A DNA stretch of 46,283 bases from an uncultured Prevotellaceae bacterium. GTDB lineage: Bacteria; Bacteroidota; Bacteroidia; Bacteroidales; Bacteroidaceae. The notes under the pieces are model-generated. The model saw only the letters and a program-made list of their open reading frames with translations, made no database searches and was not told the DNA's origin. Location of the stretch: assembly GCA_900316355.1 (NCBI GenBank), contig ONCQ01000019.1, positions 1 to 46,283 on the forward strand, in the 5' to 3' direction. Position numbers and translations under genes: made by a program. Positions 1,315-15,461 of the stretch are shown here, one piece after another (position 1 is the stretch's first letter; each line of letters begins with the position of its first letter).

Positions 1315-1692
1315 CTACAATGCTACGAGCTTGTAGGGATTGGTGATGACATGACGACCGTATTTCTTCAGGAGCGTCAGGACATCGGTACTCTCTTGCT
1401 CGTTTTCCTTCAACCCCGACACCCCAGGAAGGCGTGAGGCGAAGAACGGCCAAAGCTGGGCGGACTTGTACTGCTGATCAAGATTGGGGAAATTGACCAG
1501 AGGCTCGTATTTGTCCTGCGTCTTGTATTCGTCAGAGTAGGAGAATCGCCACTCGTCATCCTCATACGTCAGCACGCCCACCAACAGCGATCTTAGGTAA
1601 AGGTCGAAACGTCCTTTGCTGCCCTTCACTGCCTGCAGGTTGGTCTCGTCACTATCATGCCAGAACAACTTTATTTTTTCGATGATACTCAT
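1315..1692 (-). CDS. HipA N-terminal domain-containing protein (HipS-like)
   Basis: A 125-residue protein starting MSIIEKIKLFWHDSDETNLQ. The start at 1690-1692 is chosen because its ATG overlaps the TGA of the upstream kinase (ATGA, 4 bp) and is preceded by GGGAGGT at good spacing. The core has GRFDLYLRSLLVGVLTYEDD, FSYSDEYKTQ, LVNFPNLDQQYKSAQLWPFF and SRLPG, matching the beta-rich N-terminal subdomain of HipA kinases (a PF13657-type region). In the HipBST systems a separate HipS carries this domain and restrains the kinase HipT; a similar role is inferred here. The gene order is kinase first, unlike HipBST (HipB, HipS, HipT). No HipB-like helix-turn-helix gene is seen next to it. Confidence 0.75.
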   Translation of the reverse strand: MSIIEKIKLFWHDSDETNLQAVKGSKGRFDLYLRSLLVGVLTYEDDEWRFSYSDEYKTQDKYEPLVNFPNLDQQYKSAQLWPFFASRLPGVSGLKENEQESTDVLTLLKKYGRHVITNPYKLVAL

Positions 1693-2735
1693 TGTATTAC
1701 CTCCCATATCGTTTTGTACCTGTAGTCCAGGCACTCGTTTATCATTAACGTCCGCTCTTTTGAAAGCAAGCGGCCAAACTCTTTTCTTATCGTTTCTTTC
1801 ATCCCTGCCAGCATTTCACTACTGAAAAGATGGCGTATCTCATCGCGAGTGATATAGAACTGGCTGTCGTAAATCTCCTTCACCATGCGGAAATGATTCA
1901 GGTCGCCAGCATCCTTCCAACCAAGCTTTGGCTTTGAACTGTCGCTGTATTTCTTCACATAGCGTGCAATATCCTTTTGTTTGATTCGCATCGCCAACTG
2001 CTCGTCGGAAGCGTTCCAGAACAATCCTCTGGCAGTGTCGTAGATGGGCGATAGACGGGCTTTCATCCGCTTGTCGAAAGGCTGGATTACCGCCCAGTTG
2101 TAGTAGTGACGGTCGTTGTTTCCAACCATCGCATCAAAGAGTAATAATTTCACCAAGTCGCCCATGATGGCTTCTTTTTCATCAGGGAAGGCTTTGGCCA
2201 CCGCCTGCTCAACGAACTGCAAGGTGAAGATCTCCCTTGAAAGGTTCGCCTCTTCCACACTTTTCACGAAAGCCTGGTCTTCGAGGTATCCTGCAAATAT
2301 TTCCGCACCATGTGCAAGGGTTTCCTTCTCAACGTCAAGGAAATAGCGGCTCAAAAAACGCAATTGACCGTTGATGATGCCCAATCGCGAGTTGGCCATC
2401 CTGATACCAAACACGCAGCCTAACCTGTTTAGCAGATGCTCTGTAATTGACTCAACAGGATACCATTTGTGGCCGGTCTTAGCAATATACTTGGGCCATG
2501 TCTTCGGATTGTTGCGTCTTACTTTACCGTCGTACTCGTAAATCCTGACAAAACCCTTTGGCGCATCGCCCGAGAGGGTAACATCCTTTACCCAGATGCA
2601 ATCCTTCCTCTTTATCACGGAGATTCCCATTCCGGCCACACTTTGACCGTGGGAATACTTCTCAATTACACTCTGAGGCAGACGGTCAATCTGTTTTGAC
2701 AAATATCTTGACTTGTTCTTCATGCTACCATTCAT
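1689..2735 (-). CDS. HipA-like Ser/Thr kinase (HipA C-terminal domain)
   Basis: A 348-residue protein with the HipA/phosphoinositide-kinase-like catalytic core: YIAKTGHKW (candidate ATP-binding Lys86), catalytic loop GNNDRHYYNW (Asp208, His210, Asn213), and metal-binding Asp233 in IYDTARGLFW. HipA kinases phosphorylate targets such as GltX or other tRNA synthetases and act as toxins; the substrate here is unknown. It lacks the usual N-terminal HipA domain, which is encoded just downstream as a separate gene. Its ATG (2733-2735) overlaps the stop of a 35-codon ORF, and its stop overlaps the start of the HipS-like gene, so the three are probably translationally coupled. A second ATG at 2723 could be the real start. 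It is probably a toxin-antitoxin or defence-type module. Confidence 0.8.
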   Translation of the reverse strand: MNGSMKNKSRYLSKQIDRLPQSVIEKYSHGQSVAGMGISVIKRKDCIWVKDVTLSGDAPKGFVRIYEYDGKVRRNNPKTWPKYIAKTGHKWYPVESITEHLLNRLGCVFGIRMANSRLGIINGQLRFLSRYFLDVEKETLAHGAEIFAGYLEDQAFVKSVEEANLSREIFTLQFVEQAVAKAFPDEKEAIMGDLVKLLLFDAMVGNNDRHYYNWAVIQPFDKRMKARLSPIYDTARGLFWNASDEQLAMRIKQKDIARYVKKYSDSSKPKLGWKDAGDLNHFRMVKEIYDSQFYITRDEIRHLFSSEMLAGMKETIRKEFGRLLSKERTLMINECLDYRYKTIWEVIQ

Positions 2736-2871: not shown

Positions 2872-3251
2872 TTAGCGGTTAGAGGATTCTAACTGCTTTT
2901 GAAAAGAACTTCTTAACCCAGATAACTGCTTACCTATTATACTTATTCTATCTTGTTCGTTGTTAAAGTCATCGTCAGTTATATATCTCAAATCACGAGC
3001 GATGTCAAGTTGGCACAGGACTTCGGTCAATGAGCCATAGACGATTTCTATGAAATGGATTTCTCTTTGACAGAGTATCTTCCAGAGCCTTCGGCAATAT
3101 TTGACGGGATCGAAGTGACAGACCTTCGCAATTGGTCTCCTAGCGCATAAGTCTCCACCTTAGGAGAACTATCGAGCATCTTATACACGCTCTTCACAAG
3201 TTCCTTCGACTCCTTGTAAACCTTCAGATCAAAAAAGGAGAAATTGTCCAT
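2872..3251 (-). pseudogene. Four-helix-bundle protein gene, frameshifted
   Basis: The first part (start 3251) reads MDNFSFFDLKVYKESKELVK ... DQLRRSVTSIPSNIAEGSGR and stops at TAG after KEKSIS. From about 3065 the next frame continues the family perfectly: HFIEIVYGSLTEVLCQLDIA ... and ends at a TAA at 2872-2874. The break is at AAAGAGAAATCC, where relatives usually read KEKIHFIE; restoring one A to the AAA run would repair it. Either this is a real one-base loss in a homopolymer or a sequencing error. This copy belongs to another subgroup of the family (SIPSNIAEGSGR) than the copies at 680 and 6196, so it is not a recent duplicate of them. Confidence 0.8.
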
Positions 3252-3371: not shown

Positions 3372-5978
3372 TTACATTGACAGTTTGTCTACTAGTTTTC
3401 GGCAATGTTGGTTATCACGATCCCTTTCAAGACCCATCCGAGCATATTTTAATGCATTGGGTTCATCTTGCATATTGAGGAATAGCCATGCCAATCTTGA
3501 ACAGTCTTGTGCATTTGCTTCCTTAATTCTTCCCTCCATTTTAATTATAATGGCCTTTATCAAATAATTCTTCGAAAGGTCATCATTCGCTGAATTATCG
3601 GAGTAATACTTGTTTACACGATATGCAGCATAGCTAATCTCATCATAAGAGACGGAGGGCAGATTTACAATTTCTAACAATGCACTACTTTCGCCATCCC
3701 AGTCTTGATTATTATAGCAAATGTCACGCAGTCTTTTCCAAAGATCCAACCTCTTCTTTTGCACTCTCTCTACCTTCAACAATTCACGGTAACATTCTTT
3801 CTCTTTCTCAACGATTCCGAACTTGTTATAAAAAAAAGCAATGTCATTCCATATTTGCGGATATTTAGAAGATAGGTATTCCATAGAAGGAAGCTCATGT
3901 ACAAAATCATCGTATGATTTAATACGGTCTTTAAGGGCTTTAACCTTCTTGGTTATATGTGCTTCTAACGTGGCTTTCCCTCTTGCATTGCCTGCTCCAA
4001 ACTCCATCAACAACTGACGATCACTCATAATTTGAATTTTCATAGGGGATACGTCCAGTTCTTGTAAACCGAATATGGCAGCAGCTAACGGGACACTTAT
4101 AAAGAGGTCATCTTTTCTTTCAGCAATCTCTATTAATGAACTCTTCTCCAACTCATCAATGGTTGCGTCAAAATCCATGTCTTCGTTCTCTGAACGCATA
4201 ATAACTGATTCTAAAGCTATGTACGGTATTAAAGAGTGCCAACTACTAAGGGTAAGAAATACCCGTTTTGCAGCAATGGAGAGTGTAGCATATGTCCGTT
4301 TGAAAAGAGCATCAAGGACCTTGTCCTTTGCTGCCACTATACGTTTAATTTCCGTTGCCTTCCCATTCTTTAATACCTCGCCAAGAATAATCTTTATGAC
4401 ATAAGGATGACCATCAGATTCTTCAATCAAATTATTGATATAGCCCTCTGAAAGTAAATCCACTATTTCCAATCTCTTTGCAGTTGAATCTATTAACTCC
4501 CGACATTGTTCCTCGGTCATACCCTTAACATCCAAAGGGTAATCAGCCTTAAAGTTTCTGTTTAGTCTTGAAGTTATTAATATCTTATTAGGGTTACGTA
4601 TGAAAGTATTCAGCCATTCATATACCTCCACGGGATATGACAATGTCTCAAAGTTGTCGAACACATATAATGCTTTTCCTAAACTATTATTAGTAAGTTC
4701 TTTGGAAAAGTCTTCCACCACTTCTTTTTGTGACTTCCGCTCATTACCTATCTGCTTGAAATACTCCACAGAGATATCTTGCTGATTGATAACAACGGCT
4801 TGAACCTGTTTGGGACCGTCAGGGGTTAAATCAATATCACGCGCACTAAACCAAATGACAATGTCAAAACGATCTGAGTTATGTCGAAGGATGTCGCTAA
4901 TAACATAGAGAGCAAGTGAGGTTTTTCCAATACCACCACGCCCTTTCAGAGTCACTATTGGATAACGATTCTCATCTAATAGGACCTTTCTCAGTTCATC
5001 TTCCAGTTCTGTTCTTTGAATATACTCTTCTTGGCCTATCGGTAAATTAGTAAAACTATTCCCAACCACTGATAACTTAGAACCACCAGTAATGCTATCC
5101 GGCAGTCTCTGGGGTGGCTCTAAATATGCGCTACCATCGCACTTCTCATTCAAATTAAGGTAATAATCGTGTAATTCGAATTGGCGATCTCCGCCAAAAT
5201 TCCCGTTCACAATCAAGAATTTTGTCAATTCAGCATCAGATTTGAGTAGAGGCACAAACCGAGGAGAGTCCGTATATAGATAGACTCCACTTTGAAATTT
5301 ATATTCCCGAGAGCTTTTCAAATAGTCAAACTCCGCCGTCCTATTTGCAAAGCATGAAACACGGTACTTGCCATTCATATTTTGATATAAGTGCGCCCAA
5401 TTTCTTTTAAAGACACTGAAGTTTTCAATAATAGGGGATAAGGCATCTTCTAGTTTTCCTATAACGTTAGAACACTGTGTGGGAGTTATTGAGCCATGTC
5501 CTTTTGTCTTATTTCGAAGTATGCTGAAATTACTAAACCAAATCTTCAATGATGATTTTTTTGATAATGCATTTCCAGCAATTCCCAAAGTATCAAGGCA
5601 GCTGTTAAGATTGCACACAGCATCTAATTGCCAAGTCCCATCATTTAGTTTTGAATTCAACTCGACTATCTCAACATCTCTTACACACCTTGGAAGGTAG
5701 TTTGCAGCACTACCTATTGCAATATCAGTAATAATATCTGCATACACTCCTATTCCATCTGCTCTTACAAGCCTATACTCATATCTATAACGAGTTCTAT
5801 CAACATCATCTTCGATGTTCGCAACTAAAAACAATGTGGCAAACTTGGTTACCATTTCGCCAATGGTCATCAAGTCATAGAAGTAGGCGGTATCGGATTC
5901 GTCTTTCGAAGCTTTTGCTCTTCTCAGCATCTGCTCCAAAGGAATAAAATCAAAAGACAATTTATTCTGCACTTCCAT
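3372..5978 (-). CDS. STAND/NB-ARC-like ATPase with HEPN-like N-terminal motif and TPR-like C-terminus
   Basis: An 868-residue protein. Residues 1-200 carry the motif LRNKTKGHG (155-163), fitting the RxxxxxH active-site pattern of HEPN ribonucleases. The central NTPase has Walker A GRGGIGKTS (346-354), Walker B ALYVFDNFE (436-444), sensor ITSR (468-471) and a DGHPYVI segment near 530 resembling the GLPL box. The C-terminal third (about 650-868) is helical, with TPR-like pairs such as EKECYRELLKVE and EPNALKYARMGLERD. This architecture (effector, STAND ATPase, sensor repeats) matches bacterial NLR-like antiphage proteins, which oligomerise on sensing a ligand and then fire the effector. Function and HEPN assignment are inference. 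It stands alone between repeat-rich gaps and is AT-rich compared with the core genes. Confidence 0.7.
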   Translation of the reverse strand: MEVQNKLSFDFIPLEQMLRRAKASKDESDTAYFYDLMTIGEMVTKFATLFLVANIEDDVDRTRYRYEYRLVRADGIGVYADIITDIAIGSAANYLPRCVRDVEIVELNSKLNDGTWQLDAVCNLNSCLDTLGIAGNALSKKSSLKIWFSNFSILRNKTKGHGSITPTQCSNVIGKLEDALSPIIENFSVFKRNWAHLYQNMNGKYRVSCFANRTAEFDYLKSSREYKFQSGVYLYTDSPRFVPLLKSDAELTKFLIVNGNFGGDRQFELHDYYLNLNEKCDGSAYLEPPQRLPDSITGGSKLSVVGNSFTNLPIGQEEYIQRTELEDELRKVLLDENRYPIVTLKGRGGIGKTSLALYVISDILRHNSDRFDIVIWFSARDIDLTPDGPKQVQAVVINQQDISVEYFKQIGNERKSQKEVVEDFSKELTNNSLGKALYVFDNFETLSYPVEVYEWLNTFIRNPNKILITSRLNRNFKADYPLDVKGMTEEQCRELIDSTAKRLEIVDLLSEGYINNLIEESDGHPYVIKIILGEVLKNGKATEIKRIVAAKDKVLDALFKRTYATLSIAAKRVFLTLSSWHSLIPYIALESVIMRSENEDMDFDATIDELEKSSLIEIAERKDDLFISVPLAAAIFGLQELDVSPMKIQIMSDRQLLMEFGAGNARGKATLEAHITKKVKALKDRIKSYDDFVHELPSMEYLSSKYPQIWNDIAFFYNKFGIVEKEKECYRELLKVERVQKKRLDLWKRLRDICYNNQDWDGESSALLEIVNLPSVSYDEISYAAYRVNKYYSDNSANDDLSKNYLIKAIIIKMEGRIKEANAQDCSRLAWLFLNMQDEPNALKYARMGLERDRDNQHCRKLVDKLSM

Positions 5979-6058: not shown

Positions 6059-6195
6059 CAAAATTTCGTTCCATGTGATTTATTGTTTGTCGAGGGTCAA
6101 GGGTTAAGAGTCGAGAGTCGAGGGTCAAGGGGCGAGAGGCGGGAGTCGAGGGGCGAGGGTCGGGAGTCTGGAGGCGAGGGGCTAGAGGCGAGGGG
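6059..6195. repeat. Four-helix-bundle gene 5' remnant plus GAGGGTCGAGAG minisatellite
   Basis: The 33 bp at 6059-6091 (CAAAATTTCGTTCCATGTGA onward) are identical to 6618-6650, which contain the start codon and upstream region of the next four-helix-bundle gene. On the minus strand the remnant gives MERNF and then diverges, so only a leader and five codons survive. From 6092 to 6195 there are purine-rich repeats of GGGGCGAGAGGCG/GGGTCGAGAGTC type. The stretch 5979-6058 is non-repetitive and shows no promoter of the usual consensus. Confidence 0.8.
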
Positions 6196-6633
6196 CTAGA
6201 GGCGAGAACGCTTATTATTTTCTATATATGTGATAAGTTTTTTCAAACCACTTGATATGGATTGAGCCTTATCGTGTAGCTCTTTATGTTTATCTGGCGT
6301 ACAGAAACCTAAGTCCTCACAGAGAAATAGCATAGAGCGTACTTCTGAACAACTGCCTTTTGCTATATAGAGGAAATTTACATACTTGGCATCAGATCCG
6401 GATTCATTACCCTCAGCAATATTATTGACCTTGTCGATTTCCTTCGCGCCTCAGCAGTGTCTGAGCGAGCTCACATTGCGTTCGGCTTGGCGTCAATTCA
6501 TTATACTTACAGCTGCCCTCTGAATTTGATCCCGAAATCCGAAGTCCCTACAATTCTGCATCATAGCATAAACATCATTGACAAAGGATCTCGCCTCCTG
6601 CCATACACGCAAATTCTCAAAATTTCGTTCCAT
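6196..6633 (-). pseudogene. Four-helix-bundle protein gene interrupted by a 69-bp insertion
   Basis: Start ATG at 6631-6633. The reading begins MERNFENLRVWQEARSFVND and runs to QIQRAAVSIMN, where a TGA stops it. After 69 foreign bases it resumes as NNIAEGNESGSDAKYVNFLY ... GSCSEVRSMLFLC and ends at TAG 6196-6198. Compared with the intact gene at 680-1030 the two halves join exactly at MN/NIAEG. The inserted DNA is listed separately. Length without the insert is about 120 residues, normal for the family. The two genes are clearly close relatives. Confidence 0.85.
6424..6498. mobile_element. Tiny MITE-like insertion (69 bp) with 3-bp target duplication
   Basis: It sits inside the four-helix-bundle pseudogene. 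The inserted piece (6427-6495) is flanked by ATT on both sides (6424-6426 and 6496-6498), and the junctions form a perfect ATTGAC...GTCAAT inverted pair. Inside, CTCAGCAGTGTCTGAG folds as a 5-bp stem with a 6-nt loop. It is too short to encode anything. The mobile nature is inferred from the clean interruption relative to the intact paralogue. Confidence 0.6.
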
Positions 6634-6650
6634 GTGATTTATTGTTTGTC

Positions 6651-6778
6651 AAGGGTCGAGAGTCGAGGGCCTAGAGGCGAGGGGCGAGAGTCGAGAGTCG
6701 AGAGTCGAGGGGCGAGGGGCGAGAGATGATTCTTTCCTATCACATTTCCCTGCTTATTATATTTGTGTGTTTGGCTGC
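6651..6778. repeat. Purine-rich minisatellite and duplicated flank
   Basis: 6651-6721 repeats GGGTCGAGAGTCGAGGG-like units. 6722-6778 (AGATGATTCTTTCCTATCAC onward to GTGTTTGGCTG) is a near copy of 1206-1262 beside the intact four-helix-bundle gene, with a short deletion. Both copies lie just after the end of an accessory operon, which suggests an insertion preference or shared recombination endpoints. Confidence 0.8.
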
Positions 6779-6829: not shown

Positions 6830-7534
6830 TTAATTATCATAGACTACATATACTCTTTTTGCGTATCTCATGGCAGAATAATATGTGCATACAAGACAGA
6901 ACACCAATAATGTTCCAATAACCCATACACTACTGTTTATCAAATGCTCAATTCCGAGCTGTTCTTTATCATTCAGAATGCACAGCCCCCAGCATATAAG
7001 CAAGTCAACAATTAGTCCCCCACACAGATTCCGGAAGAAGCCATACGTACAATTAAACTCGAATACCACCGGATTTTCTCTGCAGGTCTCGCGAATCTTT
7101 TCAAATGCCTCACGTGCAGCTTTTCTTCTTGTAAAATAGCCCTTAGGACTATCTCCGTCTGTATAAATCGCATCAATATTTGCTTCTTTAGCCTTCTTTA
7201 GAATTCTCTCCTTGCGCTGTTCAGACAAAATACCACACCTTTTCTTCATCAAATTAACTGCGGGTCTTCCTAGAATGAAGAACATCGGTTTTTCTATTAT
7301 TAGTACAGATATCTCACGAATAGAGGACTGGTAGAAGAACAAAAGTGCGGGTATTATTGCGCCAAAAGATAAAACAACGCCCACTACATATCGAACATTG
7401 TTGAGCTCTGCGGTATATTCCTGAAAGAAATAAACTGCCGCAAGCAAAGGAAAAACAATACTAACTATAGCAGGATTTCTACGTGCCCATTCGTTGTACT
7501 TTCGGTCTCTGTTTTCTTGATTCACTTCACTCAT
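6830..7534 (-). CDS. Membrane protein with four predicted TM segments, last gene of kinase-TPR operon
   Basis: 234 residues starting MSEVNQENRDRKYNEWARRN. Hydrophobic segments lie at about 22-37 (IVSIVFPLLAAVYFF), 48-68 (YVVGVVLSFGAIIPALLFF), 171-187 (CGGLIVDLLICWGLCIL) and 202-219 (VWVIGTLLVFCLVCTYY). A charged soluble loop (about 95-160, RKERILKKAKEANIDAIYTD ... SPKGYFTRRKAAREAF) separates the two hairpins. The start codon overlaps the stop of the TPR gene by 4 bp (ATGA), so it is probably made with it. I do not recognise the family. In a kinase-sensor operon such a protein could be a membrane effector or transducer, but this is only inference. Confidence 0.75.
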   Translation of the reverse strand: MSEVNQENRDRKYNEWARRNPAIVSIVFPLLAAVYFFQEYTAELNNVRYVVGVVLSFGAIIPALLFFYQSSIREISVLIIEKPMFFILGRPAVNLMKKRCGILSEQRKERILKKAKEANIDAIYTDGDSPKGYFTRRKAAREAFEKIRETCRENPVVFEFNCTYGFFRNLCGGLIVDLLICWGLCILNDKEQLGIEHLINSSVWVIGTLLVFCLVCTYYSAMRYAKRVYVVYDN

Positions 7535-9072
7535 TTCATTTGTTTTTTAAATTCACTTTTTATTTCATTCAAAAGAATCTTCAATTCTGCTTCTTTTTCC
7601 TCTGGAATTATCTCACTCACTTCCTCCATAACTTTTACCGGGCTTTCGTCACCTGCAATAAGGCGTTCACGACAATAATTTAGCTTGGCTTTTCTGGATA
7701 AGAATTTACCTTCTTCTGTATCTGCCTGTTGTGCTATAGTTATAGCTTCTTGGTATTTTACCGCACCTTCTTGATGCTTTCCGTCACGATAAAGAATAAG
7801 TCCTTCCGTTGCCGGCACACAGACTTTCCAACTCAAAGAATTATCCAAGCAAGATATTGCTTGCAGTTTTTCAAAGGTTTCCTTTGCGACTTCAATTTGG
7901 TTGTCCCTAGCTGCACAATATGCTTTATTATTGAGCAAAAAGGGATTACTTTCATCTGTGCGTAAACCAACATCTAGAATTGCAGAAGCTAATGCAAAAT
8001 CATGCGTAAAGTTTGAACATATAGTATATCCTATACTAATGGGTTTGTGAGAAAAAGGCATATCGCAAATCCAACTAACTGCCTCATGGGCGGCTTCGTC
8101 ATAGCGTCCTTGAATCCAGGCGTCAAATGTCCTGACCTCGTAATCATTATTCACCTGAACATTTAAATCAAACTTGAGAGGATCAAAACTGTTTACCCAC
8201 TGTATCTGAGCCAGAGAATTATCATTCGGGGCTATCATGGCTTTCCGAAATAGTTTATTACTATTACGGTTGGATCCTGCATATAATTCTTGCGTACCAA
8301 TAGAACTTGCCAGTTCCGTATACCCAAAGGGGCTGCAGTTTCCTGAATCTATAATGGCCCGTCCTTTTTTAATATAACTAGAAGTTTTGCCCATCAGCAT
8401 ATTAATAGAAATCTCTGCCGCCATCAGCCAAGGATCAACTGCCACAGCACCTTTAGCACGAATCAGTTCGTGAGCTCGTTCTCTATCACTCATATGGAGA
8501 TAAAATCGGGCTGCAGATCTCGCAACAAAGCGATTATCCGCCCCAAAATGCAACGCTTTTTTCATCGCATCTTCGGCCTTTCCTGTCTGCCCTAAGAGAA
8601 GATATGCACGAGACAAGTCCACATATAAAAATGGATTATAAGGCATCAAATGTAACCTCATCCGGATGGTATGGATGAACGAATAGATATCATTTACCGC
8701 CGTGCATTCACGAAGCCTATTTATCTCAACCTTAGAAGACGTTGCTTCTTTGTTCTCCGAACCCAAAATGCGCAAGGCAGAATGAAGCATCGTTTGAGTG
8801 GGGGCATTTCCTTGGTCTAATATATAATTTGCGGCATCCTTCACACTTTCATCATTTTCACGTCCGTTTGTTATTGCTGCACTTAACAAATCACCAGCCC
8901 TATAAAGACTATGATGACCTTGCCATAATTCTTTATAGTCTTCTATAGAATATGGATCTCGCACTAGTTTGGAAACTTTCCATCCATCAAGTTCTCCCGC
9001 TGCGAGTGTGTTTTCGTAATAGCGCCAATTTGGCACTACTCTTCTTTCTTTGGGCTTATAAGGCAGATTCAT
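7531..9072 (-). CDS. TPR-like helical repeat protein
   Basis: 513 residues starting MNLPYKPKERRVVPNWRYYE. The N-terminal 100 residues are distinctive. From about 145 there are helix pairs of TPR type: NPFLYVDLSRAYLLLGQTGK followed by AEDAMKKAL, and later ESNPFLLNNKAYCAARDN, EVAKETFEKLQ, and GLILYRDGKHQEGAVKYQEA. No signal peptide or membrane segment is seen, so it is probably cytosolic. It overlaps the kinase stop (ATGA at 9069-9072) and the membrane protein start, so the three are one translation-coupled unit. TPR proteins usually scaffold or sense; here it could be the kinase substrate or the link to the membrane component (inference). Confidence 0.75.
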   Translation of the reverse strand: MNLPYKPKERRVVPNWRYYENTLAAGELDGWKVSKLVRDPYSIEDYKELWQGHHSLYRAGDLLSAAITNGRENDESVKDAANYILDQGNAPTQTMLHSALRILGSENKEATSSKVEINRLRECTAVNDIYSFIHTIRMRLHLMPYNPFLYVDLSRAYLLLGQTGKAEDAMKKALHFGADNRFVARSAARFYLHMSDRERAHELIRAKGAVAVDPWLMAAEISINMLMGKTSSYIKKGRAIIDSGNCSPFGYTELASSIGTQELYAGSNRNSNKLFRKAMIAPNDNSLAQIQWVNSFDPLKFDLNVQVNNDYEVRTFDAWIQGRYDEAAHEAVSWICDMPFSHKPISIGYTICSNFTHDFALASAILDVGLRTDESNPFLLNNKAYCAARDNQIEVAKETFEKLQAISCLDNSLSWKVCVPATEGLILYRDGKHQEGAVKYQEAITIAQQADTEEGKFLSRKAKLNYCRERLIAGDESPVKVMEEVSEIIPEEKEAELKILLNEIKSEFKKQMK

Positions 9073-10145
9073 GCTTTATCTTGCATAATTTGTTTGTGAA
9101 TGAGAAGCTTCGCTTGATTACAAGCGTAATTCAATGATGAAATAGCTTTTTCAATCTGCGAACGAGTGGACTGAACATCCGACTCTATATCACGACAACG
9201 TCTGGCTGGGTCTGGATCTCCAAGTTGTCTCACAATTCCTATTATCTGGTCTTCAAGTTCCGGAAAAGGGATATCCTTACGAAGTTGTTCTAGTGCCTTG
9301 CTGAATGCAACATCTAAATAGTCTTTCACGCCTTTAAATAAACCAGTATAATTATTAGGCTTATGAGTCTCCGGCATATTTTCCATTATTAAAGCATTCA
9401 GACTCATCCCTGTTATATAGTAGGTTATTAAACTTGCCAGCAGATAACAGTCCGTAAGTCTTTTTGAAAGCTTTATATCCTCAACAACTACACTATATGC
9501 ACGCTCGGGAGGAGCGTAGTTATGGTCACCAGGAAAAGGATCGTCTTCGAAAGGACTTCGTATAGTTTCACATGTAGAACAGCCCAAGTCTCCTACCTTT
9601 GTGATGTTCTTTTTATCAAATGTCAGGATATTGGATGGTTTTATGTCCTCGTGGGTAATACCTGCTGTATGAAGTTGCTGCAATCCTACAGCGACGGAGT
9701 GTAACGAACGTAACCGCCATGCAAAATCCAACTTAGCAGAATTCTCCATTGCGTCAATAACATCGCCATCGGCTTTCTCAAATATGAGGTAGTACATAGG
9801 TACATACACATTGTCATCAAGACTTTCTTCTCCTGCATCCAAAACAATCGTCACATTTGACAGGTGCTTCCCTTTACAAAGATTACACACATCACGCTCA
9901 TAAGTGTATTGATTCAACACTTTCTTAAATATATCTGCACGAGTCTCACCAGGTTCAAGATGACGAATATGTTCGTTTATATCCATCACTTTCATAAAAC
10001 GCTGCTGCCCGTCCTTCTCTACCATATAGCAGACAGAATACTTGCCTTTCTGTCGATTACTCTTTGGTTCTATTTTATGCAACACTTTCCACCCTGTCTC
10101 CAGAGTACGCCCCTCAAGGGAGTATATTTCGTTGTATTCTCTCAT
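9069..10145 (-). CDS. Hanks-type serine/threonine protein kinase
   Basis: 358 residues. Kinase hallmarks: Lys52 in FMKVMD (beta-3), Glu83 in YERDV (candidate alpha-C Glu), catalytic loop HEDIKPSN (165-172), metal-binding Asp186 in DLG instead of DFG, and APPE (211-214) ending the activation segment. The glycine-rich loop is degenerate (KGKYSVCYMV). The C-terminal lobe is followed by a helical tail (about 310-358). No TM segment or extracellular sensor domain is present, unlike PrkC/PknB, so input probably comes through the partner proteins. It is cotranscribed with the TPR and membrane genes (4-bp overlaps) and follows the Cys-rich gene by 25 bp. DLG kinases can be active; the substrate is unknown. 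Confidence 0.85.
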   Translation of the reverse strand: MREYNEIYSLEGRTLETGWKVLHKIEPKSNRQKGKYSVCYMVEKDGQQRFMKVMDINEHIRHLEPGETRADIFKKVLNQYTYERDVCNLCKGKHLSNVTIVLDAGEESLDDNVYVPMYYLIFEKADGDVIDAMENSAKLDFAWRLRSLHSVAVGLQQLHTAGITHEDIKPSNILTFDKKNITKVGDLGCSTCETIRSPFEDDPFPGDHNYAPPERAYSVVVEDIKLSKRLTDCYLLASLITYYITGMSLNALIMENMPETHKPNNYTGLFKGVKDYLDVAFSKALEQLRKDIPFPELEDQIIGIVRQLGDPDPARRCRDIESDVQSTRSQIEKAISSLNYACNQAKLLIHKQIMQDKA

Positions 10146-10170
10146 TATCTGGCGATAGAATATTTCACGT

Positions 10171-10572
10171 TTATCTATATGTTATCTTTATCGTATAATG
10201 CAGAGTTCCACTACATCTTTGCTCTGGATGGTCTGGAGCTTCTTGCCCGTCACAGTGCATTTCATCAGATTTCTCCGTCAAATTATCTCTACGCATGTCG
10301 TAGATTTCGTTCTTCAAATCAAAGCCTGCCGAGGAGCACTCGCGGTTGAGACAATCAAGGACAAAACACATCTGACTTTGAAGATTAACATTCCATGTTC
10401 CTTCTTTATCTTGGTTTCCAAAGACTGAGCCGTGATGGAGATGATATGTAATCTCTATCTTCTCGATATTTGGAAATACATCACATATCTTTCTTGTATC
10501 CAAATAACGCATTCTCCTCTGCTCCTGTTTGAGTTTCTCGAGCTTAGCTCTTGTCATGTGTTTTCCGTACAT
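10171..10572 (-). CDS. Cys-rich hypothetical protein upstream of the kinase
   Basis: 133 residues starting MYGKHMTRAKLEKLKQEQRR (an alternative start is Met6). Four cysteines are placed as MCFVLDCLNREC (CX4CX4C), then MHCDG and QRCSG, followed by a beta strand HYTIKITY; together they could bind zinc. The central FPNIEKIEITYHLHHGS looks like a beta-rich fold. It lies 25 bp before the kinase on the same strand, so it is probably the first gene of that operon. I do not know the family. A small folded domain feeding the kinase is one possibility (inference). Confidence 0.7.
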   Translation of the reverse strand: MYGKHMTRAKLEKLKQEQRRMRYLDTRKICDVFPNIEKIEITYHLHHGSVFGNQDKEGTWNVNLQSQMCFVLDCLNRECSSAGFDLKNEIYDMRRDNLTEKSDEMHCDGQEAPDHPEQRCSGTLHYTIKITYR

Positions 10573-10629: not shown

Positions 10630-11067
10630 TTATTTCCTTGTAATGTCATTGGCCACATCGGCAAACTTGGAGAGGTCGGCCTCGTGAAGGGGATGATACA
10701 TGGCAACGACCTCGTTGATGCCCAAGCCCTTGCGCTGAATGTGGGCAAAGCTGCGGCATGACAGCCACTGGTAGTAAGCAAGCACCCACCCTGCCCAATA
10801 CTCAGGACCAACGGTGTAAGTGCCGTCATTCTTATCAGAAATGATCCCGCCTGACTCCTTCACTACCATGTCGGCCAACTCTGCATCTGACATGCCCACC
10901 AAGTAACGGGGATTGCCCTGACCAAACTGGCGCGACACACCGCTTGACAGGAACTTCTGATAGAATTCGCCAATCGTGTAGCCATACTTACGTACACCGC
11001 AATCCATCATCACGGCAAGGTTACGCATAGCACCATTGAGGTATGTTTTCTTATATGCTCTGGCCAT
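10630..11067 (-). CDS. Conserved hypothetical protein of the type found beside DUF3990/DUF3791 genes
   Basis: 145 residues starting MARAYKKTYLNGAMRNLAVM. Features are FGQGNPRYLVGMSDAELADM and the tryptophan-rich GPEYWAGWVLAYYQWLSCRSF. I recall similar proteins next to DUF3791 and DUF3990 genes in Bacteroidales and Firmicutes genomes; the remnant upstream fits that pattern. The start overlaps the end of the remnant frame by 17 bp, as in a coupled operon. Its function is unknown; a toxin-antitoxin-like role for the group is speculation. It is separated from the Cys-rich gene by 57 bp with no visible promoter. Confidence 0.7.
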   Translation of the reverse strand: MARAYKKTYLNGAMRNLAVMMDCGVRKYGYTIGEFYQKFLSSGVSRQFGQGNPRYLVGMSDAELADMVVKESGGIISDKNDGTYTVGPEYWAGWVLAYYQWLSCRSFAHIQRKGLGINEVVAMYHPLHEADLSKFADVANDITRK

Positions 11068-12248: not shown

Positions 12249-12633
12249 GGTTTACGGTTGAGGGGTGAGGGGTGGCCCCCTCTAAATCTCCCCGAGGGGA
12301 GACTTGGGGAAGGGGGATGGGGTTAAGGGTTAAGGGTTAAGGGGTGGCCCCCTCTAAATCTCCCCGAGGGGAGACTTGGGGAAGGGGGATGGGGTGAGGG
12401 TTAAGGGTGAAGGGGTGAGAGTTGAGGGGTGAGGGTTGAGGGGGGGCCCCTCTAAATCTCCCCGTGGGGAGACTTGGGGAAGGGGGATGGGTTGAGGGTG
12501 AAAGGTTAAGGGTTGAGGGTTGAGGGTGGCCCCCTCTAAATCTCCCCGTGGGGAGACTTGGGGAAGGGGGTTGAGGGTTGAGGGTGAAGGGGTGAGGGTT
12601 AAGGGTTGAGGGTTGAGGGTGAAGGGGTGAGGG
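12249..12633. repeat. Intergenic array: four REP-like palindromes between GGGTTAAGG-type repeats
   Basis: Four copies of a roughly 45-bp element at 12271-12317, 12343-12388, 12443-12486 and 12525-12570. The core is CCCCTCTAAATCTCCCCG, then A or T, then GGGGAGACTTGGGG. The inner TCTCCCCGAGGGGAGA is a perfect palindrome and the CCCC/GGGG arms extend it. Between copies lie GGGTTAAGG, GGGTGAGGG and GGGTTGAGG heptamer-like repeats. Together the arrays fill the whole 385-bp gap between ugd and the fimbrial gene. Confidence 0.9.
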
Positions 12634-14031
12634 TTAGTCGCGTTTGAAGATGTCGCGGGTGTAGACTTTGGAGGCGACATCATCGAGGAGGGAGTCGTAG
12701 CGGTTGGCGATGATGGCATGGGAGAGGGCCTTGAAGGTGGGGAGGTCGTTGACGACCTTGGAACCGAAGAAGGTGGTGCCATCAGGAAGGGTGGGTTCGT
12801 AGATGATGACCTTGGCACCCTTGGCCTTGACGCGTTTCATGACGCCCTGGATACTGCTCTGGCGGAAGTTGTCGGAGTTGGACTTCATGGTGAGGCGATA
12901 GACGCCGATGATGCATTCTTTCTCGGCGGAGGCGTCGAAGTCGCCACGGTTGTAGTAGTCGTAGTAGCCGGCTTTCTTCAGGACCTGATCGGCGATGAAG
13001 TCCTTGCGGGTGCGGTTGGACTCGACGATGGCGGACATCATGTTCTGGGGAACCTGGGCGTAGTTGGCCAGAAGCTGCTTGGTATCCTTGGGGAGGCAGT
13101 AGCCGCCATAGCCGAAGGAGGGGTTGTTATAATGGGTGCCGATGCGGGGGTCGAGGCAGACGCCATTGATGATGGCTTGGGTGTCGAGGCCCTTCATCTC
13201 GGCATAGGTGTCGAGTTCATTGAAGTAGGAGACGCGGAGGGCGAGGTAGGTGTTAGCAAAGAGCTTGACGGCCTCGGCTTCGGTGGAGCCCATGAAGAGG
13301 CAAGGGATGCCTTTGTCAAGTGACGAGTGACGAATGACGAATGACGAATCGGGCCCCTCTCCGGCTCTCCCCGTGGGGGCGAGAGATTGGGACTGCGTGG
13401 AGTTGGGAGCGGAGGATTGGGAACCAATGGCACCTTCGAGGAGGAGGGAGGCGAAAGTGCGGGCGGGGGCTTCGAGGGAGGGGTCATCATAGCCGACGAT
13501 GATGCGGGAGGGATAGAGGTTGTCGTAGAGGGCCTTGCTCTCACGCAGGAACTCGGGGGCGAAGATGATGTTGGGGGTGACGACCTTGAAGGTGCCGTCG
13601 GCTAGGCGTTCGCGATAGGAATATTTCTCGCGGACGGAGACGGTATAACCCACGGGGATGGTGCTCTTGATGACCATGACGGCGTTGGGGTTGACGCTGA
13701 GAACGAGGTCGATGACATCCTCGATATGATGGGTGTCGAAGAAATTCTTGACGGAGTCGTAGTTGGTGGGGGCAGCGATGACGATGAAATCGGCATCCTT
13801 ATAGGCTGCGGCACCATCGAGGGTGGCGACGAGGTTCAGGTCTTTCTCCTTGAGGTATTTCTCGATATACTCGTCTTGAATGGGGGATATCTTGTTGTTG
13901 ATCTTCTCCACCTTCTCGGGGATAACATCGACGGCAGTCACCTGATGGTGCTGTGCCAGCAGCGTAGCGATGGAGAGGCCTACGTAGCCTGTGCCTGCAA
14001 CGGCAATCTTGAGATCTTTGAAATCGTTCAT
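12634..14031 (-). CDS. ugd: UDP-glucose 6-dehydrogenase
   Basis: Oxidises UDP-glucose to UDP-glucuronate with two NAD+, feeding capsule and exopolysaccharide synthesis. The start at 14029-14031 gives [20 protein letters not shown] with the NAD-binding GTGYVG at residues 13-18; a longer frame upstream is only translated GGTTCAAAG repeats. Catalytic Cys312 lies in [13 protein letters not shown], and the end KVYTRDIF is like E. coli Ugd. The protein has 465 residues against about 388-400 in relatives. The main cause is an in-frame insert of about 37 residues (203-239, [20 protein letters not shown] ... [10 protein letters not shown]) between EGAI and [14 protein letters not shown], composed of repeat and REP-like sequence (nt 13315-13425). 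It sits beside a NusG-like regulator, fitting a polysaccharide context. Confidence 0.92.
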
Positions 14032-14079: not shown

Positions 14080-14232
14080 GTTTAAAGGGTTCAAAGGTTC
14101 AAAGGGTTCAAAGGGTTCAAAGGGTTCAAAGGGTTCAAAGGGTTCAAAGGTTCAAAGGTTCAAAGGTTCAAAGGTTCAAGAGTTCAATGGTTCAAAAGTT
14201 CAATGGTTCAAAAGGTTCAAGGGTTCAAGGGT
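14080..14232. repeat. Tandem repeat of AAGGGTTCA / AAGGTTCA units
   Basis: About 150 bp of almost perfect GGGTTCAAA and GGTTCAAA units, drifting into AGTTCAATGG variants near 14180-14210. It fills the gap between the NusG-like gene and ugd. The same motif appears more sparsely at 18300-18360. Confidence 0.9.
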
Positions 14233-15461
14233 TAATATCGGACGCTCTTGCGTATCAGGGAGGCGAAGGCAAGGAGGCGTTTGGACTTGGGTTGGCGGAC
14301 GCGGATGTATTCCTTGACGGCATCGCGATAGGCGGGGTTGTCGGTAGCTACCTTCAGGGCGATGCAGAGGTATGCGTCGGTATCGGAGGTGAGGGAGGGC
14401 TGGGGGGTGGGGGTTGGGAGTTGGCTATTGGGTATTGGGAGTTGGCTATTGGGTGTTGGGCGTTGGGGAGCGGTGCAGTTGAGGAGGGAGTGGACGGTGG
14501 TGAGAAGAGACTGCTCGGTGCGGGTGTCCTTGGAGAGGTGGGCGCAGATGAGCATGAGGGCCTGGAAGTGAGCGTTGGCGGAGCGGGTGGTAATCTCATA
14601 GGTGCGGTAGCGCAGGAGGCGCTCCAGCATGTCGCTGTCCTCCAAGAAAGGTTGTAGTTCCAACTTCTGGCGCTCTGTCAAGGTGGCGTCGAGAGAGCGG
14701 CGTTCGGCAGCGGCCTGCTTGTGTTCGCGTTCGGCATGCTCCAGCTGTGCAGCGCGTCGTGAGAGAATCTCAAGGACCTGATCCTGTGTGTAGCGGATGA
14801 AATCAGCGCGCAGGGCATTGATGCCTGCCGGGTTGAGAGGCTTGACATCGCGGGCGCTGACACCATTCATGCGGATATCTATCTGTCCGATGACCATGGA
14901 GATGGCGAGGTCGAGGATGAGCTGTCCTTTGTGCAGCTTGGCACGGAGCACGGTGGCTTCATAGCCTTTATAGATGCCGTTCTTTATCTTGACCTTGTCC
15001 TGGACGGCGATGTCATCGTTGGAAGGGATGAGTTCGAAGCGGTCGCGGTAGGTGACACAGGCCTGCAGGAACTCTTCCATCATGTCGTCGCGCACAAAGG
15101 CTTGTTCTCCAGAGGGGGTGAGGTAGCGGCGCAGACGGACATAGGACTGCATGTTAGCAGGGGAGTAGATGAGCTCGTTGATATCCCGCGTGGTGCCTTT
15201 CAAGAAGATGAAATGGCGGAAAACGCGATGGGCATTGGCCTGTTTTTTCTCTTCATCGAGACGTCCGCGGAGGAACTCATAGGGATAGAAGGGACGTATG
15301 AGGGGTTCGTTGTTGCGAAAGCGCTCGGCATTGGCATAGTCAAACCACTTGCGGAACTGGTCCACTTCGAGGTGTGTCATGACATGCCACTTGGAAATGG
15401 AGTCATCGGCAGGTGTAACGGGATGTATATTGTTGGGGATAGAAGGGTTCATGTACGACAA
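14232..15461 (-). CDS. NusG/UpxY-like transcription regulator with long C-terminal extension
   Basis: 409 residues. The N-terminal part resembles an NGN domain: SISKWHVMTHLEVDQFRKWF at 21-40 and FRHFIFLKGT at 81-90. Residues about 155-208 carry a KOW-like segment (QDKVKIKNGIYKGYEATVLR, then LILDLAISMVIGQIDIRMNG). The remaining 200 residues are helical (HAEREHKQAAAERRSLDATL), with no family that I know. NusG paralogues of this sort bind elongating RNA polymerase and usually act on polysaccharide operons; it is followed by ugd. An in-frame repeat insert lies at 332-355 (PTPNSQLPIPNSQLPTPT; nt 14397-14468). Its family membership is less sure than that of the UpxY at the left edge. Confidence 0.65.
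   Translation of the reverse strand: MSYMNPSIPNNIHPVTPADDSISKWHVMTHLEVDQFRKWFDYANAERFRNNEPLIRPFYPYEFLRGRLDEEKKQANAHRVFRHFIFLKGTTRDINELIYSPANMQSYVRLRRYLTPSGEQAFVRDDMMEEFLQACVTYRDRFELIPSNDDIAVQDKVKIKNGIYKGYEATVLRAKLHKGQLILDLAISMVIGQIDIRMNGVSARDVKPLNPAGINALRADFIRYTQDQVLEILSRRAAQLEHAEREHKQAAAERRSLDATLTERQKLELQPFLEDSDMLERLLRYRTYEITTRSANAHFQALMLICAHLSKDTRTEQSLLTTVHSLLNCTAPQRPTPNSQLPIPNSQLPTPTPQPSLTSDTDAYLCIALKVATDNPAYRDAVKEYIRVRQPKSKRLLAFASLIRKSVRY

Follow-up and report, generated by a model that had tools for sequence, protein, structure and literature searches.

Which system, if any, do the four genes at positions 6830-10572 of contig ONCQ01000019.1 (assembly GCA_900316355.1, from an uncultured Prevotellaceae bacterium) encode? 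The window analysed is the whole stretch of 46,283 nt. All four genes lie on the minus strand: an open reading frame (ORF) for a 133-aa protein (10171-10572), a kinase gene of 358 aa (9069-10145; recognized as an ORF and by PADLOC and Pfam), a tetratricopeptide repeat (TPR) gene of 513 aa (7531-9072; ORF, PADLOC and an AlphaFold2 model) and a gene of 234 aa for a protein with four predicted transmembrane segments (4-TM; 6830-7534; ORF, profile match and hydrophobic segments). The 133-aa and kinase genes are separated by a 25-bp gap, and the kinase/TPR and TPR/4-TM junctions are 4-bp ATGA overlaps. An earlier note on this DNA had the frames, the gap and both overlaps right and proposed one four-gene system that fits no named system. 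That proposal does not hold. Judged by profile matches, the kinase and the TPR protein are the PADLOC phage-defence candidate (PDC) pair PDC-M71A/B, already catalogued, and the locus is this pair with two local add-ons. What had not been expected is the apparent exchange of the 4-TM partner. Homologues were found elsewhere for each of the four proteins.

The kinase matched PDC-M71A with an E-value of 2.6e-114 over residues 4-349 of 358, and the TPR protein matched PDC-M71B with an E-value of 3.3e-150 over residues 1-510 of 513. Both core proteins match near full length and their genes are adjacent on one strand; the 133-aa and 4-TM proteins fall outside the PADLOC models, each matching none at E up to 1. 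Pfam and NCBIfam gave just general kinase and TPR matches. In the Pfam scan, which covered eight window proteins including the four of the operon, the kinase matched Pkinase (1.9e-12), and TPR_2 alone passed the cut-off for the 513-aa protein, barely (27.5 versus 27 bits); weaker matches such as Rgg_C and Na_Ca_ex were under the cut-off and were disregarded. AlphaFold2, using 55 aligned TPR proteins, modelled the 513-aa protein as a solenoid made almost wholly of helices (mean pLDDT 91.3, pTM 0.82). No enzyme domain is apparent in this model, from which we infer that the protein may be a sensor or scaffold. An N-terminal tail (R10, P14 and W16) and a PNDN stretch are conserved in the same alignment. 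According to the available part of PMC12988326, PDCs are candidates derived from ‘guilt-by-embedding’ and are mostly unvalidated; the part of PMC13356809 available cites Payne et al. 2024 as their source. Literature searches found no paper using the terms PDC-M71, PDC-M42 or PDC-M03, and the HipA-family kinase system described in the available text of PMC13092281 is different from the kinase-TPR pair.

The pair is real and conserved. The M71B model matched seven of 393 genomes of the order at E ≤1e-8, the window's own included, of which six were convincing; genome G220 (locus L037), a weak partial match with no kinase beside it, was left out. In a scan of genome collections 60 of 69 candidate stretches were confirmed, compared with one of seven in the viral collection, and 3 of 72,556 plasmid records carry the pair (Deinococcus, Arthrobacter and Rhizobium). 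The pair is known from Bacteroidota metagenome-assembled genomes and isolates, from a small number of other phyla, and from three plasmids and a single viral contig. After removal of the duplicates L049, L051 and L077 (of L071, L081 and L052, respectively) the final set contained 67 loci, the window among them. In 63 of these the kinase gene immediately precedes the TPR gene on the same strand, the two frames being -13 to +8 bp apart in 61 of the 63; of the remaining four, L090 has its TPR frame split and the other three start at the edge of a contig. Pairwise distances of the kinase and of the TPR protein are correlated (r 0.92, n = 62), a figure that stands without an unlinked control gene for comparison. 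The earlier note had looked to shared gene order to support its proposal, and had taken an unconserved neighbourhood or an already named system as grounds against it. The kinase-TPR adjacency is what such a search returned; the outer two genes are not conserved with the pair, and the core is an already catalogued candidate, so that both grounds against the proposal apply in part.

The kinase has the motif HEDIKPSN with D167, GDLGC at residues 185-189, and K52, N172 and D186, so that the Hanks kinase with DLG and Asp167 described earlier is indeed present; its profile matches ordinary eukaryotic-type kinases in PDB. Residues were counted, and a tree was built, over the 62 loci with a kinase frame >230 aa and a TPR frame >480 aa. 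D167, N172 and D186 are retained in 60 of 62 homologues and K52 in 59, the other three being gaps. DLG replaces DFG as a family trait, leucine following the D186 equivalent in 56 of 62. The two exceptions are predicted pseudokinases, at 10236-11348 of L050 and 8889-9980 of L092. A DUF2971-type gene lies directly upstream of both; that of L092 matches PDC-S31 and Pfam DUF2971, and that of L050 is its homologue. To judge from the residues lost, this branch is a natural pseudokinase experiment.

The 4-TM protein has four hydrophobic segments, arranged as two segments, about 100 aa and two segments (three in all at a stricter setting), much as had been described, and its reading frame and N..YG..RN motif are intact. 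A search of 150 relatives and 139 genomes of the genus found it in the window alone, and first searches of plasmids, viral contigs and PDB gave nothing. The view that it is an orphan was dropped once a search of the 393 genomes of the order gave relatives in G180 (E 9.1e-7) and G309 (E 1.1e-6), together with five weak fragments and the window itself. In G180 the 4-TM gene lies 10 bp after a PDC-M48B match (E 6.7e-31), a metallo-β-lactamase (MBL)-type gene from its sequence reading. In G309 it ends a cluster of DUF6791/ThiF, DUF6527, MBL-like and E2/ThiF/JAB fusion genes, the MBL-like label coming from weak matches to the LmuA and RTasMBL models. Queries with the G180 and G309 proteins gave 24 and 19 plasmid records, respectively, and that of G309 also gave two viral-contig loci; a profile of three rows hit 5 of 321 genomes in the phylum, the window's own included. 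Fifteen loci were inspected and 14 kept, L140 being dropped (the start of its annotated frame falls within the match); seven of eight plasmid regions were kept, and the weak matches L120-L124 and L131 are outside the sample. A profile of these 14 other members finds the window protein at an E-value of 3.9e-18, the next best among the window frames and 200 shuffles being 0.23. By this measure, the 4-TM protein belongs to an unnamed family of membrane proteins of MBL-fold and E2/E1/JAB clusters.

A same-strand MBL-type gene is near the 4-TM gene in 13 of the 14 loci; six MBL genes, chosen by eye and with PADLOC, seeded the MBL profile, so the independent count is seven of eight. In four plasmids (L134, L135, L137 and L138) this gene is annotated as MBL fold or metallohydrolase. 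An E2/E1/JAB relative occurs in 7 of 14 loci, the seed included, that of L141 on the opposite strand. The window shares the 4-TM family with these operons and differs from them in its other genes: no window ORF is an MBL match at E below 1, and Pfam gave no ThiF, E2 or JAB match among the eight window proteins scanned. Within the DNA covered, relatives of the kinase, the TPR protein and the 133-aa protein are at none of the 14 other 4-TM loci, and relatives of the 4-TM and 133-aa proteins are at none of the 66 other kinase-TPR loci. The window therefore joins parts that are otherwise apart in the sample. Since the window has no MBL gene, the 4-TM protein looks like a membrane partner relocated onto the kinase-TPR module. 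The ‘membrane’ end of the sense-phosphorylate-membrane chain proposed in the earlier note gains support from this predicted kinship. The MBL plus E2-E1-JAB operon usually has two genes (Iyer et al. 2006, PMC1779556, Table 1 row 6a, in the part available); the operon description in that part makes no mention of the 4-TM gene, and the literature search otherwise gave nothing relevant. Clusters of MBL, E2/E1/JAB and 4-TM genes are seen at L126 (7336-13525) and L142 (6470-12046), the latter with an extra gene, patatin-like as judged by eye, that separates the E2/E1/JAB genes from the 4-TM gene. One contig in the viral collection carries a pair of 4-TM and MBL genes (L133, 5001-6724).

The 133-aa protein had been called Cys-rich. 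With just six cysteines in 133 aa this is mild; C74, C79, C107 and C120 are invariant in four aligned homologues, which suggests a zinc ribbon, and we regard the protein as a putative small zinc ribbon. Its relatives are in G051 (75%), G142 and G574, as fragments in G071 and G740, and on one Fibrella plasmid, the counts being 4 of 150 and 3 of 295 genomes (the window's own in each) and 1 of 72,556 plasmids; PDB, phages and viral contigs gave nothing usable. In G051 (L046, 4422-8392) the homologue is immediately followed by a 525-aa membrane protein that has no Pfam or PADLOC match, with AAA_21 and HEC-01B-like genes beyond. In G142 it precedes a 335-aa WYL protein and an 817-aa methylase plus ATPase protein, identified by eye. 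Its neighbours in G574 and Fibrella are not defence-like.

We also examined which genes accompany the pair. A same-strand gene lies within 60 bp upstream in 22 of 67 loci and downstream in nine, the window in both, some of these genes being short or doubtful frames and two being pieces of kinase. Restriction genes among the upstream partners are HsdM (L053), an AlwI-like endonuclease (L054), HsdS (L055 and L064), HsdR (L067) and an IIG-type fragment (L057); others are AbiEii (L071), DUF2971 (L092 and L050) and a PtuB/HNH-like protein (L070). BilD is upstream of the pair in L065 and in its near copies L073 and L096. In L055 the pair lies between hsdS and hsdR: HsdR follows 194 bp downstream and an HsdM-like gene is also present upstream, so that the pair is inside one type I gene cluster; in L087, HsdM is 644 bp upstream. 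Seven restriction-gene seeds, searched against the loci, picked up such genes in 10 of the 67, in some cases through weak matches. Mapped on the 62-pair tree, the seven rows with a restriction label are scattered and require seven changes, indicating links that were made (or lost) several times independently. The branch that holds the window has a support of 88 and is long, hence not firm; it groups six rows with neighbours labelled AbiE, DUF2971 (twice), HsdR, HNH and McrB-like, the last matching REase_II models and sitting downstream. The window's own immediate partner genes are not catalogued defence genes.

Defence models were then counted in proteins near to and far from the pair. PADLOC models reaching 1e-10 numbered 405 for 100 near neighbours (the nearest of 228 within 3 kb) and 31 for 100 far ones (random, of 177 at ≥5.5 kb), a ratio that overstates the effect because redundant models rather than proteins are counted and the far set also holds defence genes. 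One methylase matches dozens of models, and each model matches at most four of the 100 near proteins. By Pfam, the near set contained Methylase_S (four), phage integrase (three) and AAA_21 (three). Near-neighbour matches to mad2, mad3, mad5 and mad8 of MADS look like cross-hits, and MADS was rejected. The mad2 cross-hit is seen in the L087 methylase (MTase_I 1.6e-186 versus mad2 1.9e-73), and those to mad3, mad5 and mad8 are presumably of the same kind. Links of the pair with restriction, AbiE, Bil or other defence genes recur across the loci. Since the pair is conserved and often beside such genes, an antiphage role, as had been suggested, is plausible.

Other defence kinases are known. PglW (BREX/Pgl) and MAD6 (MADS) have other architectures and operons, and the match of the window kinase to mad6 (3.1e-13) is far below that to PDC-M71A. 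Membership of PD-T4-6 or Stk2 was rejected likewise (8.4e-13 and 2.9e-5 versus 2.6e-114). Detocs resembles the window in having a TPR sensor and phosphotransfer, and uses a histidine-kinase relay instead of a Hanks kinase. KKP is Ser/Thr kinase-based phage defence in which a phage protein inhibits a phosphatase and toxic kinases are freed (PMC11341870, in the part available). The window has a TPR partner in place of the second kinase and phosphatase of KKP, and membership was rejected: the eight proteins scanned include one Hanks kinase, a HipA-type protein that is in a separate unit, and no phosphatase. The available part of PMC12839542 states that PglW-type kinases might be backup co-effectors acting by a suicidal mechanism; by analogy, the kinase-TPR pair could play the same role.

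The surroundings are probably a small defence island. The four genes have a GC content of 0.39-0.40, compared with 0.554 across 14.2-46 kb, so that the block is AT-rich as had been noted. Fifty-seven bp upstream on the same strand is a gene for a 145-aa protein (10630-11067, minus strand; GC 0.516) with a weak PADLOC match to PDC-M42B (1.4e-6), probably the island edge rather than an operon member. An 868-aa NB-ARC (STAND) ATPase (3372-5978, minus strand; Pfam NB-ARC 2.2e-11) is a candidate defence gene outside the operon, and a HipA-C protein of the PDC-M03A family (1689-2735, minus strand; Pfam and PADLOC) is an island member. These neighbours and the truncated small genes agree with the earlier description. 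Truncated remnants of a four-helix-bundle (23S rRNA intervening-sequence-like) gene, labelled by eye, flank the NB-ARC gene at 6480-6635 and 3048-3251 on the minus strand, and an intact copy recognized by Pfam is at 680-1030. Short repeats of 7-8 bases (such as GTCGAGA and GGGTTGA) form arrays at 489-677, 1079-1190, 6089-6207, 6648-6725, 12249-12636 and 14088-14233, mainly between genes and also within the AT-rich island.

In the mechanism that we propose, the TPR solenoid would bind the kinase and some infection cue. Infection would alter the TPR protein, leaving the kinase freed or active, and the active kinase may, by analogy with other defence kinases, phosphorylate host or phage proteins and stop growth before phage release. 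The module occurs with no recognised partner or next to the restriction, AbiE, Bil or other genes to which it is linked, and next to these it may act as a co-effector. From its homology and linkage the 4-TM protein would most likely be a membrane output or anchor, and the zinc-ribbon-like 133-aa protein might, as a guess, be an accessory sensor or regulator. We give about an even chance to this reading of the locus as a PDC-M71 defence module with two local add-ons working as described. We are considerably more doubtful of an extension into portable layers, in which a kinase-TPR alarm unit would be set on unrelated effectors, the 4-TM protein would be a portable membrane effector for MBL, E2/E1/JAB and kinase-TPR systems, phosphorylation, in place of a hydrolase or a ubiquitin-like conjugation signal, would open it or assemble it in the membrane, and the DUF2971-paired pseudokinase would be a scaffold and a third solution.

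Several observations weigh against the proposed mechanism. The kinases of L050 and L092, both on one tree branch, are without D167, N172 and D186, so catalysis is not required in every lineage. No recognised defence partner accompanies 46 of the 62 tree rows, the window's included, and the defence link is therefore frequent, not general. Far neighbours include defence genes too (JetA, AbiLi, DpdF, SspH and AriA models). Only in the window do the 4-TM gene and the pair occur together, which is a single case, and literature searches gave no functional test of the pair.

Other explanations overlap mutually and with the one we prefer, and their probabilities need not sum to one. Nearest to it in likelihood, at somewhat less than an even chance, is chance assembly, in which the kinase-TPR pair is a complete system and the genes for the 133-aa and 4-TM proteins are passengers that came from different systems and share transcription only. 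The absence of both genes from the 66 other loci, the truncated genes in the island and the lack of the usual MBL partner all fit this explanation. The TPR/4-TM overlap and the even GC content speak against it, suggesting coupled translation and a shared history, as do the intact 4-TM frame and motif. Rather unlikely in our judgement is a toxin-antitoxin system with the kinase as growth-stopping toxin and the TPR protein as its restraint, guarding neighbouring systems or a mobile element. Tight two-gene coupling, parallel divergence, occurrence on plasmids and the many loci without a recognised partner would suit it, and KKP, in the part of PMC11341870 available, is a published phosphorylation-based toxin-antitoxin defence. 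Against it, the eight window proteins scanned include no phosphatase. The TPR gene, moreover, stands second, and in most toxin-antitoxin pairs the antitoxin gene comes first.

The kinase might instead be a regulator that phosphorylates the defence proteins it is partnered with, such as HsdR or a nuclease, and so adjusts how active they are. The position of the pair, within hsd and other defence genes or immediately behind them, fits this. The partners, however, are mutually unrelated (HsdM, HsdS, HsdR, AlwI-like, IIG-like, AbiEii, DUF2971, HNH-like and BilD), so that a single kinase family would have to act on many substrates, and 46 of the 62 rows are without a recognised partner; we consider this unlikely. 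Stress signalling without a defence role would be compatible with a function that is putative and read from sequence, and Hanks kinases and TPR proteins are common. It seems quite improbable to us, given the patchy distribution (a convincing match in 6 of the order's 393 genomes, the window's own included), the plasmids and the defence-gene neighbourhood.

As far as we could find, PDC-M71 is otherwise known solely as a pair of PADLOC models. Its gene order, partners, catalytic conservation and pseudokinase lineage now provide a testable mechanism for this candidate. The 4-TM gene suggests a membrane component for the MBL and E2/E1/JAB operons, described in 2006, in the part of that paper available, as usually having two genes. 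The shared 4-TM family would link otherwise unrelated types of predicted immunity, namely ubiquitin-like/MBL operons and kinase-TPR modules, and would allow the interchangeability of defence outputs to be examined directly. The locus suggests that the alarm and output components of bacterial immune systems are exchanged from one system to another.

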